Origin: a virus
Reading direction: 5' to 3' (one strand)
DNA length: 23,358 bases
IMG/VR virus record: IMGVR_UViG_3300027759_000435
Span: 1 to 23,358 of that record
Each line of letters opens with the position of its first letter. Within the stretch, counting starts at the first letter, position 1. The translations under genes and the position numbers were made by a program. This document shows, piece by piece, positions 4,804 through 23,358 of this stretch. Below the pieces are notes generated by a model that had not been told where the DNA came from, did no database searches, and saw only the letters and a program-made list of their open reading frames with translations.

Positions 4804-5502
4804 ATGAAATTAACTGATTTTGACAAAAACCCAATCGAGAACGCTACTAGAGCGTTAAAAGAGCATTATAACGTTCCGTTTAATGTTCGTAAAATGTCTT
4901 ATGCCCAAGCAAGAGATATGCTTCACAAAGTTCGCGGTCTAATGACTGAAACAAAGAAATCTACTGGTTTCTATGAAAGCCAACAAAATTCTTCATATCT
5001 AAAACTTGTGTTTATGGAACAAGCACTAAGCAAGCATTTTGCTGAAATCAGCTTACGTAAACCACGAATTGTTGTAGAGAATGAAGAAGTTGAAAAGTCA
5101 CAAGTTGTTTTGGCAGCTCAAGATTTAGTAGACCAAGTACAGAAAATGGTTGAAGAAGTTAGTGATATGTTAGTAAAAGAATTACCAGCATTGACAGATA
5201 GTGTTCAATCTGAGATTGGTGTTAACGAAAGTGAAACATTTAATCAACAAGTTTCTGAAGCATTAACTTCACTACAAGCCGCATTGACACAAAGTCAAAC
5301 AACATTGAAATCTGCATTGAATAGTATCACCGGTCAAGGTGGTGCTGAAGCATTTGATGCAGGTGGTGATATGAATGCTGATATGAATGCTGATATTGGC
5401 ATGGAAGAACCACTTCCCGGCGGTGGCGAAGAAGAAATGAATCTTGACATTGAAGCTCCTGAAGAAGAGCCTCTAGGTGGTGTCGGTCGTCCTAAGAGAT
5501 AA
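4804..5502 (+). CDS. Acidic, helical core/scaffold-like protein (putative)
   Basis: This 232-residue protein has a basic N-terminal third (residues 1-90), a long helical, probably coiled-coil middle (VVLAAQDLVDQVQKMVEEV and following, to about 175), and a very acidic Gly/Glu/Asp tail ending GRPKR. The tail contains a short tandem repeat (MNADMNAD) encoded by two copies of a 12-base unit at about 5369-5392. Helical rods with acidic tails recall T4 prohead core proteins such as gp22 or gp67/68, but I see no specific motif, so this is a guess from composition. It is the first gene of a late operon and is followed two bases later by the next start. Confidence 0.6.
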   Translation: MKLTDFDKNPIENATRALKEHYNVPFNVRKMSYAQARDMLHKVRGLMTETKKSTGFYESQQNSSYLKLVFMEQALSKHFAEISLRKPRIVVENEEVEKSQVVLAAQDLVDQVQKMVEEVSDMLVKELPALTDSVQSEIGVNESETFNQQVSEALTSLQAALTQSQTTLKSALNSITGQGGAEAFDAGGDMNADMNADIGMEEPLPGGGEEEMNLDIEAPEEEPLGGVGRPKR

Positions 5503-5504
5503 AC

Positions 5505-5825
5505 ATGCGTTTGTATGAGTTTGCCGGCAGTCCTCTGTTAGTTAAGCTGGTAGCCACTACCAGCCAACTTAAGAGTGAAATTGATTCCGGTAACATTCAT
5601 AGTGATTGGACTGTTCCAGAATTATTGCAATACTACAGAGATAATGATATAATTATTGATAAGTCTGATTTATATAACATGATTAAAAATCCACCATTGA
5701 ATCAGAGTATAGAAAACATTCAAGGTGATAAAATTATATTCAAAGGTCAAACTCCTGAACAAGAATTAGAGCCTGATGAAAATAAAAAAGTTGTAGCACA
5801 AATGGCAAAGAATGCAATGCAATGA
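5505..5825 (+). CDS. Small conserved-looking phage protein, possible capsid-targeted N-terminus
   Basis: A 106-residue protein starting MRLYEFAGSP. The middle (LYNMIKNPPLNQSIENIQGD, then KIIFKGQ) and the C-terminus (KKVVAQMAKNAM) look like conserved blocks, and I recall a similar unnamed family in T4-like cyanophages. The first residues contain L-x-E (LYE) in a short basic/aromatic N-terminus, which loosely resembles T4 capsid-targeting peptides. The start lies two bases after the upstream stop, and its own stop overlaps the HesB/IscA start (ATGA), so it is firmly inside the operon. Its function is unknown. Confidence 0.7.
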   Translation: MRLYEFAGSPLLVKLVATTSQLKSEIDSGNIHSDWTVPELLQYYRDNDIIIDKSDLYNMIKNPPLNQSIENIQGDKIIFKGQTPEQELEPDENKKVVAQMAKNAMQ

Positions 5826-6142
5826 TAAGCATAACTGAAAAAGCATCAAACAAAATTCAACAAACAATACAAAAACGAGGTAAGGGATTAGGCATTCGCA
5901 TAGGTGTAAAAACTACAGGATGCTCAGGTCTCGCTTATGTGCTTGAATATGTTGACAACCCATTAGAACATGATATTAAAGTAGACTGTAATGGTTGTAC
6001 TTTATACATTGATCCAAAAAGTTGTGCATATGTCCAAGGTATGACTATTGACTATACACGTAACGGGTTAAATGAAGGGTTTGAATTTCAAAACCCAAAT
6101 GAGCGTGATAAGTGTGGTTGTGGAGAAAGTTTTAGGGTATAA
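5822..6142 (+). CDS. HesB/IscA/ErpA-type iron-sulfur carrier
   Basis: A complete A-type iron-sulfur carrier of 106 aa, the usual length. In bacteria these proteins accept or hold clusters and pass them to client enzymes. The three defining cysteines are present: Cys34 in TTGCSGLAYV, and Cys98 and Cys100 in the C-terminal KCGCGESF. The N-terminal helix and the glycine-rich GLGIRIGVKTTGCSG stretch match the family. Three extra cysteines (56, 59, 68) are present. It starts within the stop of the upstream gene and its stop shares a base with the next start, so it belongs to the late operon at 4804-7852. T4-like phages of marine bacteria are known to carry such genes; here it presumably assists iron-sulfur assembly in the host late in infection. 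Confidence 0.92.
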   Translation: MISITEKASNKIQQTIQKRGKGLGIRIGVKTTGCSGLAYVLEYVDNPLEHDIKVDCNGCTLYIDPKSCAYVQGMTIDYTRNGLNEGFEFQNPNERDKCGCGESFRV

Positions 6143-17309: not shown

Positions 17310-17317
17310 TATTTATC
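17310..17317 (-). promoter_or_regulatory. T4-like late promoter GATAAATA, leaderless gp14-like start
   Basis: Exact GATAAATA on the minus strand, followed by CTATT and then the ATG at 17304. The predicted +1 is therefore the A of the start codon. It lies divergent to the sigma70-like promoter at 17345. Confidence 0.65.
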
Positions 17318-18995: not shown

Positions 18996-19024
18996 GTTTC
19001 CTGATAAATACAATATCGGGAAAC
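18996..19024 (+). promoter_or_regulatory. Start-blocking hairpin before the gp13-like gene
   Basis: GTTTCCTGATA (18996-19006) pairs with TATCGGGAAAC (19014-19024): eleven pairs including one G-U, around a seven-base loop. The 3' arm contains the GGGA ribosome site. RNA from the early promoter at 17345 would carry the complete hairpin, while RNA begun at 19016 would lack the whole 5' arm. Confidence 0.7.
19003..19010 (+). promoter_or_regulatory. T4-like late promoter GATAAATA (gp13-like)
   Basis: Exact GATAAATA, with predicted +1 at 19016, giving a 13-base leader that begins TCGGGAAAC and carries GGGA as ribosome site. The element lies in the 5' arm and loop of the hairpin at 18996-19024. Confidence 0.7.
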
Positions 19025-19028
19025 ATAT

Positions 19029-19826
19029 ATGACAATATCAGCAACAGCAAATATCCTTTCTACTCCATCTGGATTAACCCTGGATGAACTAAAACAAGCA
19101 TTATTCAGTAATCTGCGTTATAGATTGGGTGATGGCATCATTGACCTAGAGTTAGATCCGCAACACTACGAAGCGGCATATAACTACGCTATTAAAGTAT
19201 ATCGTCAAAGAGCACAAAATGCTACGGCTGAATCATATACACTAATGACAGTTGTAAAAAACGTAGATACTTACACTCTACCGCAAGAGTTTATCAATGT
19301 TCGTTGTATCTATCGTAGAACAGTTGGATTAGAAACAGGTCCAGGCTCAAGCAGTTTTGATCCGTTCAGTAGTGCTATTCTTAATACATATTTGTTAAAC
19401 TATAACTATGCAGGTGGTATGGCAACATATGACTTCTATGCCGGTTATGTTGAACTAGCCGCACGTATGTTCGGTGGTTATGTAATCTATACATTTGATC
19501 CAGTTACAAAAGTTATACGTATTGTTCGTGATCCAAAAGGTAGTGGTGAGCGTGTTCTTATTTGGGCTGACGTTCAACGACCAGAAGAAGTGTTACTACA
19601 AGATCCAGGTGCTGGTGTATGGATTGGTGACTTTATCTTAGCTAATCTTAAACTAATCATTGGTGAAGCACGTGAGAAGTTTGGAACTATTGCAGGTCCA
19701 GGTGGCGGCACTACACTAAACGGTACAGCTATGAAAGCTGAAGGTAAAGCCGCAATGGAACAACTGTACGATGAACTAAAACGTTATGTTGATTACAGTC
19801 AACCATTGACTTGGGTACAAGGTTAA
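19029..19826 (+). CDS. Neck protein, gp13-like
   Basis: A 265-residue protein with the layout of T4-like gp13, which with gp14 forms the collar joining head and tail. The N-terminal helices (LTLDELKQALFSNLRYRLG, then DLELDPQHYEAAYNYAIKVY, residues 38-57) match the gp13 pattern of an acidic turn followed by a helix with spaced Tyr and Ala. The C-terminal part (LIIGEAREKFGTIAGPGGG, then GTAMKAEGKAAMEQLYDEL) matches the end of marine T4-like gp13 proteins. It is transcribed opposite to gp14 and gp15, unlike in T4. The ribosome site GGGA is seven bases upstream of the ATG and is masked in read-through RNA. Confidence 0.75.
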   Translation: MTISATANILSTPSGLTLDELKQALFSNLRYRLGDGIIDLELDPQHYEAAYNYAIKVYRQRAQNATAESYTLMTVVKNVDTYTLPQEFINVRCIYRRTVGLETGPGSSSFDPFSSAILNTYLLNYNYAGGMATYDFYAGYVELAARMFGGYVIYTFDPVTKVIRIVRDPKGSGERVLIWADVQRPEEVLLQDPGAGVWIGDFILANLKLIIGEAREKFGTIAGPGGGTTLNGTAMKAEGKAAMEQLYDELKRYVDYSQPLTWVQG

Positions 19827-19829
19827 ATA
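19822..19829 (+). promoter_or_regulatory. Late-type element GTTAAATA before the superoxide dismutase
   Basis: GTTAAATA overlaps the gp13-like stop. The predicted +1 is 19835, two bases before the ATG, and there is no ribosome site. It has two mismatches to T4 TATAAATA, so it is a weaker call. Confidence 0.4.
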
Positions 19830-19836
19830 AGATTTT

Positions 19837-20394
19837 ATGATGCGTGAATTTATTACTTTACTTGAAGATAAGAGTAAACCTCAAGACATAGAAATTATCC
19901 CACTAAACTTTACTGATAGTGAAGTTGCACCTGTACTTAGTAAAGATACAATAGAACTTCATTATGATAAATTAGCCAAAGGTTACGCTGAACGTTATAA
20001 TAAAGGCGAGGGTGATAAGGATTTTAACTATGCGGGTGCATTCTTACATAATACATTGTTCCCCCAATTCCGTGAAGTAAGAAACAAAAACAATCCAAAT
20101 GGTCCTATTATGGGCTTTATCAACAAACATTACGGTTCATATGATAATATGAAAGAACAGTTTGAAACTGAATTTATGAAGTTAGAAGGATCTGGTTGGG
20201 TATACTTAGCATATGATGGTAAGATTAAAACAATTAAAAACCATGAAGTACGCAATGATATATTGTTATTAGTTGATAGGTGGGAACACGCTTGGATATT
20301 AGATTACGGTGCGGACAAGAAAAAGTATCTAAAAGAACAGTGGAAGATTATCAATTGGAATGTAATCAATACACGTTGGGGTAAAAGTTTATAA
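19837..20394 (+). CDS. Iron/manganese superoxide dismutase with N-terminal extension
   Basis: A 185-residue member of the Fe/Mn superoxide dismutase family, which turns superoxide into oxygen and peroxide. All four metal ligands are present: His42 (IELHYDKL), His71 (FLHNTLFP), Asp147 and His151 (VDRWEHAWILDY). The gateway Tyr is Tyr50, and GSGWVYL (118-124) and IINWNVINTR (171-180) are the usual C-terminal blocks. The first two ligands are 29 residues apart against 47 in E. coli SodB, so the helical hairpin is shortened. The outer-sphere glutamine seems replaced by His136 (NHEV), as in some archaeal forms. An extra N-terminus, MMREFITLLEDKSKP, resembles T4 capsid-targeting peptides with an L-x-E cleavage site. 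The gene follows the gp13-like gene by ten bases, so expression is probably late. Confidence 0.85.
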   Translation: MMREFITLLEDKSKPQDIEIIPLNFTDSEVAPVLSKDTIELHYDKLAKGYAERYNKGEGDKDFNYAGAFLHNTLFPQFREVRNKNNPNGPIMGFINKHYGSYDNMKEQFETEFMKLEGSGWVYLAYDGKIKTIKNHEVRNDILLLVDRWEHAWILDYGADKKKYLKEQWKIINWNVINTRWGKSL

Positions 20395-20471: not shown

Positions 20472-21104
20472 ATGATTATAGGAGTTACAGGATTAATTGG
20501 GTCAGGTAAAGATACGATTGCTGACTATCTTACTACATTTCACGGGTTCAAACGTGTTAGTTTTGCCGCTTCGTTGAAAGACGCAGTAGCATCAGTCTTT
20601 GGTTGGGAAAGAGATTTACTAGAAGGGTCAACCAAGTCTAGTAGAGAGTGGCGAGAAAAGCGTGATGACTGGTGGAGTAATAGACTTGGTATGGAAATCA
20701 CCCCTAGATGGGTATTACAATACTGGGGAACAGAAGTTTGTCGCAATAATTTTCACACTGATATCTGGGTTGCTAGTGTAGAAAACAAACTACGTCAGAC
20801 CAGTGATAACATTGTGATTACTGATTGCCGTTTTGCCAATGAAGTCAAGTCTATTAAAAGTGTAGGCGGAATTACGATGCGTGTAAGCAGGGGAGAACGT
20901 CCTATTTGGTATAGTGCCGCAGTTGATTACAACAATGAACCTGAAGGTAGCGAACAACGATTAAAAGCTATGGTAGAGTTAGGTAACTATGCAGTCCACG
21001 CTAGTGAGTATAGTAGTATTGGTTTGTTGTACGACTATTACATTGATAATAATGGTACCATTGACGCACTACACAATCAGGTCAACTCAGTGGTCAACTT
21101 CTAA
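20472..21104 (+). CDS. Deoxynucleoside monophosphate kinase, gp1-like
   Basis: A 210-residue P-loop kinase similar to T4 gp1, which phosphorylates dNMPs, including modified ones, to feed phage DNA synthesis. The P-loop is GLIGSGKDT at residues 7-15. VSFAASLKDAVASVFGW (29-45) matches the conserved FAxxLKDA element. LQYWGTEVCRNNFHTDIWV (82-100) resembles the LQxxGTD and F...W block of gp1. VITDCRFANEVKSI (114-127) is the conserved D-x-R-x-x-x-E segment. It has a GGGAG ribosome site eight bases before the ATG and its own early-type promoter. Its end overlaps the opposite-strand HNH gene by 18 bases. Confidence 0.9.
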   Translation: MIIGVTGLIGSGKDTIADYLTTFHGFKRVSFAASLKDAVASVFGWERDLLEGSTKSSREWREKRDDWWSNRLGMEITPRWVLQYWGTEVCRNNFHTDIWVASVENKLRQTSDNIVITDCRFANEVKSIKSVGGITMRVSRGERPIWYSAAVDYNNEPEGSEQRLKAMVELGNYAVHASEYSSIGLLYDYYIDNNGTIDALHNQVNSVVNF

Positions 21105-21464
21105 GTCACCACGACGCCAAGTTATTTCTTTGCGCTTAACAACCTCAATACAACATAAACAGACAGTTCGTAAATTAGTAAGAGCAATATTTTCTAAATT
21201 ACCATCAATGTGATATACTGTCATTTGTGATGTAAACAAACTTTTAAAGCCACATAAATCACAAGTGGCTTTTTTCTTATATCCACTCTTAGTCCAGTTA
21301 GCCTTTCTAGGCTTTAGCTTCTTTTTCTTACGACCGCATTCATCACATCCACTGCGATAGTGTGTAATACCCTCACGGATGTAATTCACGGCACAATGAT
21401 TCTTTCCGCAAGATTTACATATAGGTCTTAACATACAGTATTTAGTAGGAACCTTCGAAGGCAC
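21087..21464 (-). CDS. Zinc-ribbon HNH endonuclease-like protein
   Basis: A 125-residue basic protein with zinc-binding cysteine pairs: C16-x2-C19, C40-x2-C43, C68-x2-C71 and C102-x2-C105. The nuclease core lies between the last two: YHIDGNLENIALTNLRTVC (84-102), with catalytic-type His85, Asn89 and Asn97. Similar proteins are frequent in T4-like marine phages; whether this is a homing enzyme or a phage DNA-processing enzyme is open. The start is taken as GTG 21464 to include the MPSKVP leader; ATG 21434 is an alternative and lies four bases after a TAAATA element. It is convergent with the kinase gene and points away from the tail sheath gene. Confidence 0.8.
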   Translation of the reverse strand: MPSKVPTKYCMLRPICKSCGKNHCAVNYIREGITHYRSGCDECGRKKKKLKPRKANWTKSGYKKKATCDLCGFKSLFTSQMTVYHIDGNLENIALTNLRTVCLCCIEVVKRKEITWRRGDLEVDH

Positions 21465-21553: not shown

Positions 21554-23358
21554 ATGGCATTAACATCTCCAGGCGTACAAGTAACGATTACCGACGAAAG
21601 TCAATACTTACCGGCAGCAACAGGTTCAGTCCCGCTAGTTCTATTAGCAACAGCACAAAATAAAGCAAACGCTAGCGGTACAGGAGTAGCAGTAGCTACT
21701 ACGGCAGCTAACGCAAATAAATTATATCAAGTAACAAGTCAGCGTGATTTAGTAAACTTATATGGTACACCTTTCTTCTATACAACGACAAATGGCACAC
21801 CAATTCAAGGTTACGAATTAAACGAATATGGTTTGTTAGCGGCTTACTCTTTACTTGGAGTTACAAATCGTTGCTACGTACTACGTTGTGATATTGATTT
21901 AGCAAGCTTAGTGGGTCAAACAGGTCGTCCAACTGGCGCGCCGGCTGATGGTACATATTGGTTAGACAGTACTACAAGTGCTTGGGGTATCTATGAATTT
22001 AATCAAACAACTGGTCAGTTTGCATTGCAATCACCTATTGTTATTACAGATGCTACTAATATGTCCGGTGGTGCTCCTCTAGCAAGCATTGGTGCAATTG
22101 GTGATTATGCAGTTAATGCATTACAAGTAACAACTAATCCATCGGGTGCGGAACGAACATATTATTATAAAACAACAGATAACGTGTGGGTTATATTAGG
22201 TAGTTCTGATTGGAAAAACGATATTCCTGCAATTACATCAACTGTTTCTAACCCAACCATCTCTGCAGGCGGAACACTTGTTATTGGTATGAGTGGTTTA
22301 TTCTCTGCTACTATCACTATTACATCAGGTGATACTGTATCTGACATTGCAACTGCAATTAATAATCTAGGATGGACATATCTATCAGCAGAAGTTAGAA
22401 GTGGTAAACTATGTATATTTACTGACCAATACCTATCAGCAAGTGTTGGTACAGCAAACGCTAGTTTAATTATTAGTGGAACAGGTTCATTCTCTGCATT
22501 AGGTATTCCGGCAGCTACTTATTATACCACTCTAGTCGCATATGGAACAAGTGCTCAAATGCCATTGTGGACAACTAGTCAATCGCAACCTCGTCCAACA
22601 GGCAGTGTATGGATTAAGGTTGGTGCAGCCGGCAATGGATTGACACCAGCAATGTCCAGATATAGCACAGCTACAGCATCATGGATTGCAAAAAATATAT
22701 CATTGGCTACCGCGGACTGGGCGGCAACTTCAGTATTAGATGCAACAGGTGGACAAGCTATTCCTGCAGGAACAATCTATGGTCAATATAATTTCAACGG
22801 TTCTTCTACAACATCACCCGTATATTTTTGGGAGAGAATTGCAACCGGTCCTACTGTTGTAACAGGTAGTAACACAGCTCCTGATTTCACGGCAGGCCCG
22901 TATTATATGCAAGTTTTTGTGAGTGTTCCTGGAAGTAGTTCATTAAGTTCAGCATATAATTTTACTTTAGCCGACAACAGTGACGCTACAGATTTTGTAA
23001 CAGCTTGGTACGCCGCTGGTATTCCATACACAACAGCAACAGTAACAACAGAAGGTTCTATTCAGTTAACTCACACTGAAGGTGGTGAAATTGTTATGAC
23101 TGATTACGTAAATTCATCATTTGTATCAGATGGCTCAACCAATGGTTTAATCACAGAGGCTGGCTTTATTATAGGAACAACAACTGGTGTTAAGTTTGGT
23201 CCAAGTGTATTTGTAAGTTTTACTGCCATACCACAACTTTCTACTAGTGGAAGTGGTTCTGCCGCAACATTCCAAGCACAATCAGCATACGGCGTTTATT
23301 TATTAAATGGTGATGGTGTAACTGCAGGAGGAAGTGGCTATGCAGTAGGAGACACGAT
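21554..23358 (+). CDS. Tail sheath protein, gp18-like (partial at right edge)
   Basis: The frame is open from ATG 21554 to the window edge (601 codons seen, no stop). The N-terminus, LTSPGVQVTITDESQYLPAA followed by SVPLVLLATAQNK, is the strongly conserved start of the contractile tail sheath of T4-like marine phages. The helix-rich block around QGYELNEYGLLAAYSLLGVTNRCYVLRCDIDL (residues 85-116) continues the sheath fold. Residues from about 120 onward are Thr/Ser/Gly/Ala-rich and look like the variable, outward-facing insertion domains, ending in a GGSGYAVGDT-type segment; the conserved C-terminal domain is beyond the edge. The ATG has a strong AAAGGA site and a late promoter. It is the major contractile structural protein. 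Confidence 0.92.
   Translation, partial: MALTSPGVQVTITDESQYLPAATGSVPLVLLATAQNKANASGTGVAVATTAANANKLYQVTSQRDLVNLYGTPFFYTTTNGTPIQGYELNEYGLLAAYSLLGVTNRCYVLRCDIDLASLVGQTGRPTGAPADGTYWLDSTTSAWGIYEFNQTTGQFALQSPIVITDATNMSGGAPLASIGAIGDYAVNALQVTTNPSGAERTYYYKTTDNVWVILGSSDWKNDIPAITSTVSNPTISAGGTLVIGMSGLFSATITITSGDTVSDIATAINNLGWTYLSAEVRSGKLCIFTDQYLSASVGTANASLIISGTGSFSALGIPAATYYTTLVAYGTSAQMPLWTTSQSQPRPTGSVWIKVGAAGNGLTPAMSRYSTATASWIAKNISLATADWAATSVLDATGGQAIPAGTIYGQYNFNGSSTTSPVYFWERIATGPTVVTGSNTAPDFTAGPYYMQVFVSVPGSSSLSSAYNFTLADNSDATDFVTAWYAAGIPYTTATVTTEGSIQLTHTEGGEIVMTDYVNSSFVSDGSTNGLITEAGFIIGTTTGVKFGPSVFVSFTAIPQLSTSGSGSAATFQAQSAYGVYLLNGDGVTAGGSGYAVGDT

Follow-up and report, generated by a model that had tools for sequence, protein, structure and literature searches.

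The window, by which we mean the whole 23,358-bp stretch analyzed here (a 23-kb IMG/VR virus record), carries at positions 19837–20394 on the + strand a gene that encodes an Fe/Mn superoxide dismutase (SOD); translation from 19837 gives MMREFITLLEDKSKPQDIEIIPLNF... (185 aa). The Pfam family Sod_Fe_C spans residues 88–180 of this protein (2e-23, 82.8 bits against a cut-off of 20.9), and Sod_Fe_N starts at residue 19 (8.9e-5, under its own cut-off), in agreement with the original prediction that the dismutase fold begins near that residue. The top PDB matches of the AlphaFold model (pLDDT 89) are Fe/Mn-SODs, with E-values of about 1e-13 and query-normalised TM-scores of 0.76–0.82, and the metal ligands H42, H71, D147 and H151 (three His and one Asp) are invariant among the 28 sequences of alignment A1. 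Judging from its sequence, the enzyme is probably active. It has a C-terminal-type His, H136, where Gln otherwise stands. A 501-aa uncultured-phage protein with an SOD domain (BFVD A0A6J5L953) is a possible SOD fusion.

Upstream of SOD lies the gene for the head-tail adaptor Ad2, a neck protein (19029–19826, + strand; phrog_211, 1.2e-22; homologous to PA5oct gp291, 40%), and downstream lie a deoxynucleoside monophosphate (dNMP) kinase gene (20472–21104, + strand; phrog_139, 4.8e-49), a zinc/HNH-like ORF (21087–21464, − strand; cluster cl101) that is kept downstream of the kinase in relatives, and a tail sheath gene that runs off the fragment (21554–23356, + strand; phrog_10581, 5.6e-57). SOD is thus located between a neck gene and a kinase, as had been noted before, in what we call the Ad2-kinase slot after its left and right borders. 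The order of Ad2, dNMP kinase and sheath is shared with phage PA5oct, whose SOD gene (gp223) lies elsewhere.

A late-type element had been proposed to precede SOD; it is present as a T4-type box, TTAAATA, at 19823–19829 (+ strand), where it overlaps the neck gene stop, but the window copy is degenerate. The neck gene is itself preceded by a clean box, GATAAATA (GATAAATACAAT), at 19003–19010 (+ strand), which may also drive SOD. Among relatives, 31 of 57 distinct upstream regions have [GCT]ATAAATA 12–15 nt before the SOD start codon, against 0.7% expected. The box is found upstream of 22.6% of the homologues of PA5oct proteins noted in mass spectrometry (MS; see below) and of 6.1% of the homologues of the others, and so it marks late genes. 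In the relatives G001–G004 (L085–L102, L109–L163) the first in-frame ATG follows [GCT]ATAAATA at distances that fall into two peaks, 12–13 nt (66 of 349 sites) and 24–33 nt; should the start site match that of T4, the 12–13 nt group would be leaderless mRNAs, for example GATAAATACTATTATG at 17317 on the − strand of the window.

Residue 1 of solved cellular Fe/Mn-SODs aligns at about residue 17 of the window SOD, which therefore has about 16 extra residues. These comprise the leader MMREFITLLE (19837–19866, + strand) and a linker, DKSKPQ (19867–19884, + strand), that runs from the predicted prohead-protease cut to the start of the dismutase fold, placed at residue 17–19 by Pfam and the PDB sequences. 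The L8-L9-E10 that led to the prediction of a cut after Glu10 (after base 19866) is confirmed in the translation. Residues 1–20 have low confidence in the AlphaFold model (block means 57 and 68), and they form a lone helix at residues 2–12 that is poorly packed. Inspection by eye spoke against a Sec signal or a membrane anchor, as the extension has five hydrophobic residues and then acidic ones.

In a single sequence, L/I-x-E near the N-terminus is barely above chance. Of the N-termini in these phages, 4.5% have [LI]xE with its last residue at 9/10, 12% have it ending anywhere at residues 7–14, and 2.0% have it together with K/R at position 2; the significance of the leader comes from its conservation and context and not from the motif in one sequence. 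Every readable IMG/VR relative bears an extension of the form MR[DEH][FILY]I.[LI][LI]E, so its possible absence from close homologues, which would have spoken against the original prediction, is not what is found. Arg2 and Glu9 of L-x-E (single-Met numbering) are invariant in 56 distinct SOD sequences, R3 and E10 are the sole invariant leader columns of alignment A1, and I/L-x-E is retained even in the two most distant homologues, those of L164 (MTDIRQTLDLLEAKEK, TLDLLEAKEK) and PA5oct (MNDSIKKYISIAEAASS, YISIAEAASS). The P1′ residue is mostly Asp or Glu, which counts against packaging. SOD positions 16–20 are conserved as strongly, and the whole stretch up to DIEII is kept, so conservation alone does not single out the cut site. 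The commonness of L/I-x-E at residues 7–14 is what favors a chance resemblance on a recently acquired host gene; we disfavor this explanation and consider it very improbable, because the extension is absent from solved cellular SODs, a matching leader was not seen among cellular SOD hits, and the extension has its invariant Glu in all the readable phage relatives.

Related leaders, for which the original prediction had suggested a search, are abundant on other proteins of this phage group, but SOD itself lacks the Glu5-Phe6 core that they share. We found 90 strict cases of the canonical leader MRAxEF[IL]xE (54 peptides, 85 different DNA sequences), in which positions 2, 3, 5, 6, 7 and 9 are kept and 4 and 8 are free. 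The selecting pattern partly fixes these positions, so what carries information is how sharply the leader ends after Glu9 and how unrelated the mature parts are: identity between unrelated families is 0.65 within the leader and 0.06 just past Glu9, exactly where conservation ends, and is at background in the upstream DNA. The mature parts fall into 29 families in the SOD-linked loci and large genomes, and a scan of IMG/VR by leader DNA pattern, which is independent of SOD, gave at least 24 families among the matches listed, 96 of 98 of which lie in open frames of at least 60 codons; these family counts vary with the BLAST cut-off. Domains behind the leader include GNAT, ADP-ribosyltransferases (PF03496, 9.5e-13; ART-PolyVal, 1.1e-20), SLT, GH19, LysM and NT5C; acetyltransferases and lysozyme-like enzymes are among the families, and Kinase-PolyVal was also matched. 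Searching a phage collection by tblastn with two of the cargo proteins gave no useful isolate.

Two further features deserve mention. In multi-domain proteins (L174–L213, L002, L044, L052 and L009), the junctions between different modules carry an in-frame DNA repeat, CAAGGTGTGGCGGAAGGC (QGVAEG); it is in the same frame in 43 of 43 cases, against 0 in shuffles, and may serve as a point of shuffling or as another protease site (V-A-E/G). An ART-looking domain (YLWHGS...), which lacks Pfam confirmation, stands behind many different N-terminal modules (L174–L211) and once directly behind an MRANEFIVE leader (L009).

The SOD leader keeps Arg2, Leu7 and Glu9 and is without Ala3, Glu5 and Phe6, which places it outside the definition of the MRAxEF[IL]xE class. 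Scored against a profile of the other leaders, it ranges from 2.2 (window) to 7.0 (G001), values that 4.4% to 0.5% of internal Met positions also attain; most canonical leaders score 12–21, on a profile trained on most of them. It is closer to the leaders of GP88-like proteins (L-L/M/F-E) than to canonical ones. With the core missing and a moderate profile score, the SOD leader is compatible with the address class and is not a canonical member of it.

A T4 gp21-type prohead protease (PF03420, S77) is encoded by all seven large SOD contigs (G001–G007; E-values 1e-27 to 1e-29); it is seen in these relatives and not within the 23-kb window, so that for the window phage we infer it from them. The major capsid proteins of the large SOD contigs have LLAE before the conserved core, like the T4 gp23 site, and that of PA5oct has FLVE. 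In T4, cleavage by gp21 follows L/I-x-E, and as little as the first ten residues of IPIII is enough to target a protein to the capsid (PMC9026906).

The contents of the Ad2-kinase slot vary among relatives. G001 and G002 have no gene there (61 bp); it holds an unrelated leader gene of 263 aa (MRAKEFIYE) in G004 and another of 279 aa (MRATEFIAE) in G003; in the near-identical L002 and L009 it contains SOD followed by MRAIEFLTE and MRANEFIVE leader genes. Overall, a canonical leader gene adjoins SOD in 21 of 55 distinct neighborhoods, against 1.1–1.8% of genes, in phages that are related and hence not independent. Many other SODs sit within a base or two behind the GP88-like gene (cl299), which itself starts MNFKELFEG or MKIKHLMEG, and SODs of relatives are found behind a late box or beside head-type genes. 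In the window SOD falls between genes of the neck and the sheath, and some other phages have it beside tail-fibre-like genes, as might be expected if the enzyme were an uncut structural or surface component of the particle outside the head, in the neck or tail. We find this improbable, as the position of SOD varies between phages and follows the leader genes rather than any one structure, and L-x-E is retained.

In many of these phages an IscA/ErpA-like gene lies directly behind SOD (L005, L012, L016, L022, L023 and L166); L166 is a short and possibly chimeric Polaromonas MAG contig with SOD and then this gene. The window has an IscA-like ORF at 5822–6142, which overlaps a 106-aa MRLYEFAG gene. 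Genes at 4804–5502 and 5505–5825 of the window start MKLTDFD and MRLYEFAG, and such genes have orthologues in four of four large relatives, with M[KR]L.[ED][FL] kept and without L-x-E.

Virion data touch on one homologue. The SOD homologue of PA5oct, gp223, bears an ESI-MS/MS note in its record, as do 93 CDSs of that phage in all, and the PA5oct omics paper reportedly counts 93 virion-associated proteins. The same MS-noted set holds ribonucleotide reductase, thymidylate synthase and DNA ligase; with such cytosolic-type enzymes present carry-over is possible, and detection of the SOD is weak evidence for packaging. Within PA5oct, [LIV]xE by itself near the N-terminus fails to distinguish MS-noted proteins (14/93) from the others (61/352), and the freshwater leader pattern in its strict form has too few cases for comparison (2/93 versus 1/352); looser leader patterns, fitted after the fact, are enriched in the MS-noted set (7/93 versus 3/352 and 5/93 versus 2/352). 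For phage MIJ3, gel-band MS is reported to have given four structural proteins only (PMC6892783). A literature search that went into few papers found no report of a phage-encoded SOD in virions.

The PA5oct SOD gene lies among metabolic genes, and so does that of Vibrio phage 2.275.O, whose SOD is without the extension and whose capsid protein is 67% identical to that of G001; a scan with the Vibrio SOD as query gave no matches. These clusters, the Vibrio protein, the missing canonical core and the conservation that continues past the leader up to DIEII are all in keeping with an ordinary metabolic enzyme, made late and unpackaged, which would protect replication and assembly in the dying host and whose N-terminal helix would be a structural or interaction element. 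We hold this to be possible though rather unlikely, since it leaves unexplained the invariant Glu of L-x-E, the leader-gene neighborhood and the shared slot, and since the extension is poorly packed in the model.

We return to the packaging of SOD in the head, which we judge to be fairly likely. By analogy with the T4 internal proteins, the SOD of this T4-related jumbo phage would be made late with a short removable leader, MxREFITLLE, that brings it to the core of the prohead. Cleavage after Glu10 by the gp21-type (S77) protease of the phage would then remove the leader, and the mature enzyme would remain in the head until it is injected together with the DNA; in the new host it could remove superoxide, and it may give the protection from an oxidative burst that was originally proposed. 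The original prediction of a virion-packaged dismutase gains from the kept extension, the related leaders, the gp21-type protease and the probable late context, but the mismatch to the leader core and possible carry-over in the MS list count against it.

SOD would be a new type of cargo for the capsid-leader principle known from T4, and the leader family as a whole is a more important discovery than SOD alone. We put at about even the chances of a broader proposal, that in a freshwater clade of T4-related jumbo phages a general N-terminal address (MRAxEF[IL]xE and variants), removed by the gp21-type protease, serves to load dozens of unrelated enzymes and effectors, including SOD, into the head, some of the cargo being polyproteins with an in-frame GVAEG linker that is perhaps a second cutting site. 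If so, a T4 curiosity would become a readable address, and the proteins that uncultured jumbo phages inject could be read off from N-terminal scans, with ADP-ribosyltransferases, acetyltransferases and cell-wall enzymes among them. We know of no phage with a dismutase inside its head; if the packaging is real, this would be the first, a virion-packaged SOD being known from chlorovirus PBCV-1.

Comparison with known systems is informative at several levels. The window SOD resembles the SodFM3/SodFM4 dismutases in its C-terminal-type His (H136) instead of Gln, but it has lost both His of the HxxxHH motif after the ligand (compared with PMC10172142). PBCV-1 packages an SOD made late in its virion (PMC7019647); the likeness is that of an SOD from a gene that here too is probably late, whereas the PBCV-1 enzyme (A245R) is a Cu/Zn-SOD of unrelated fold, from a eukaryotic algal virus, and has no capsid leader. 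The SODs of PA5oct (gp223) and MIJ3 (sodB) are homologous to that of the window (39%) and have an N-terminal extension with I-A-E, and the former has its MS note; they differ in lying in a metabolic cluster and in a leader that is 3–4 residues longer, and the PA5oct protein is annotated as hypothetical. The polyvalent proteins of phages, with ART, kinase and other effector domains, are predicted to be packaged and injected (Iyer 2017; PMC5512222), and ART-PolyVal and Kinase-PolyVal occur among the leader cargo, but here a defined N-terminal leader stands before many small separate proteins. The closest parallel is with IPI, IPII, IPIII and Alt of T4, the last a packaged and injected ADP-ribosyltransferase (PMC5512222): both systems have short N-terminal leaders ending in L/I-x-E, a gp21-family protease and, for SOD probably, a late context, and both have unrelated mature proteins behind similar leaders, with ADP-ribosyltransferase cargo in the relatives of the SOD phage as well. 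They differ in that the cargo here is a dismutase whose packaging we infer and whose MxREFITLLE departs at targeting positions, and in that the relatives of the SOD phage have many more leader genes than T4.
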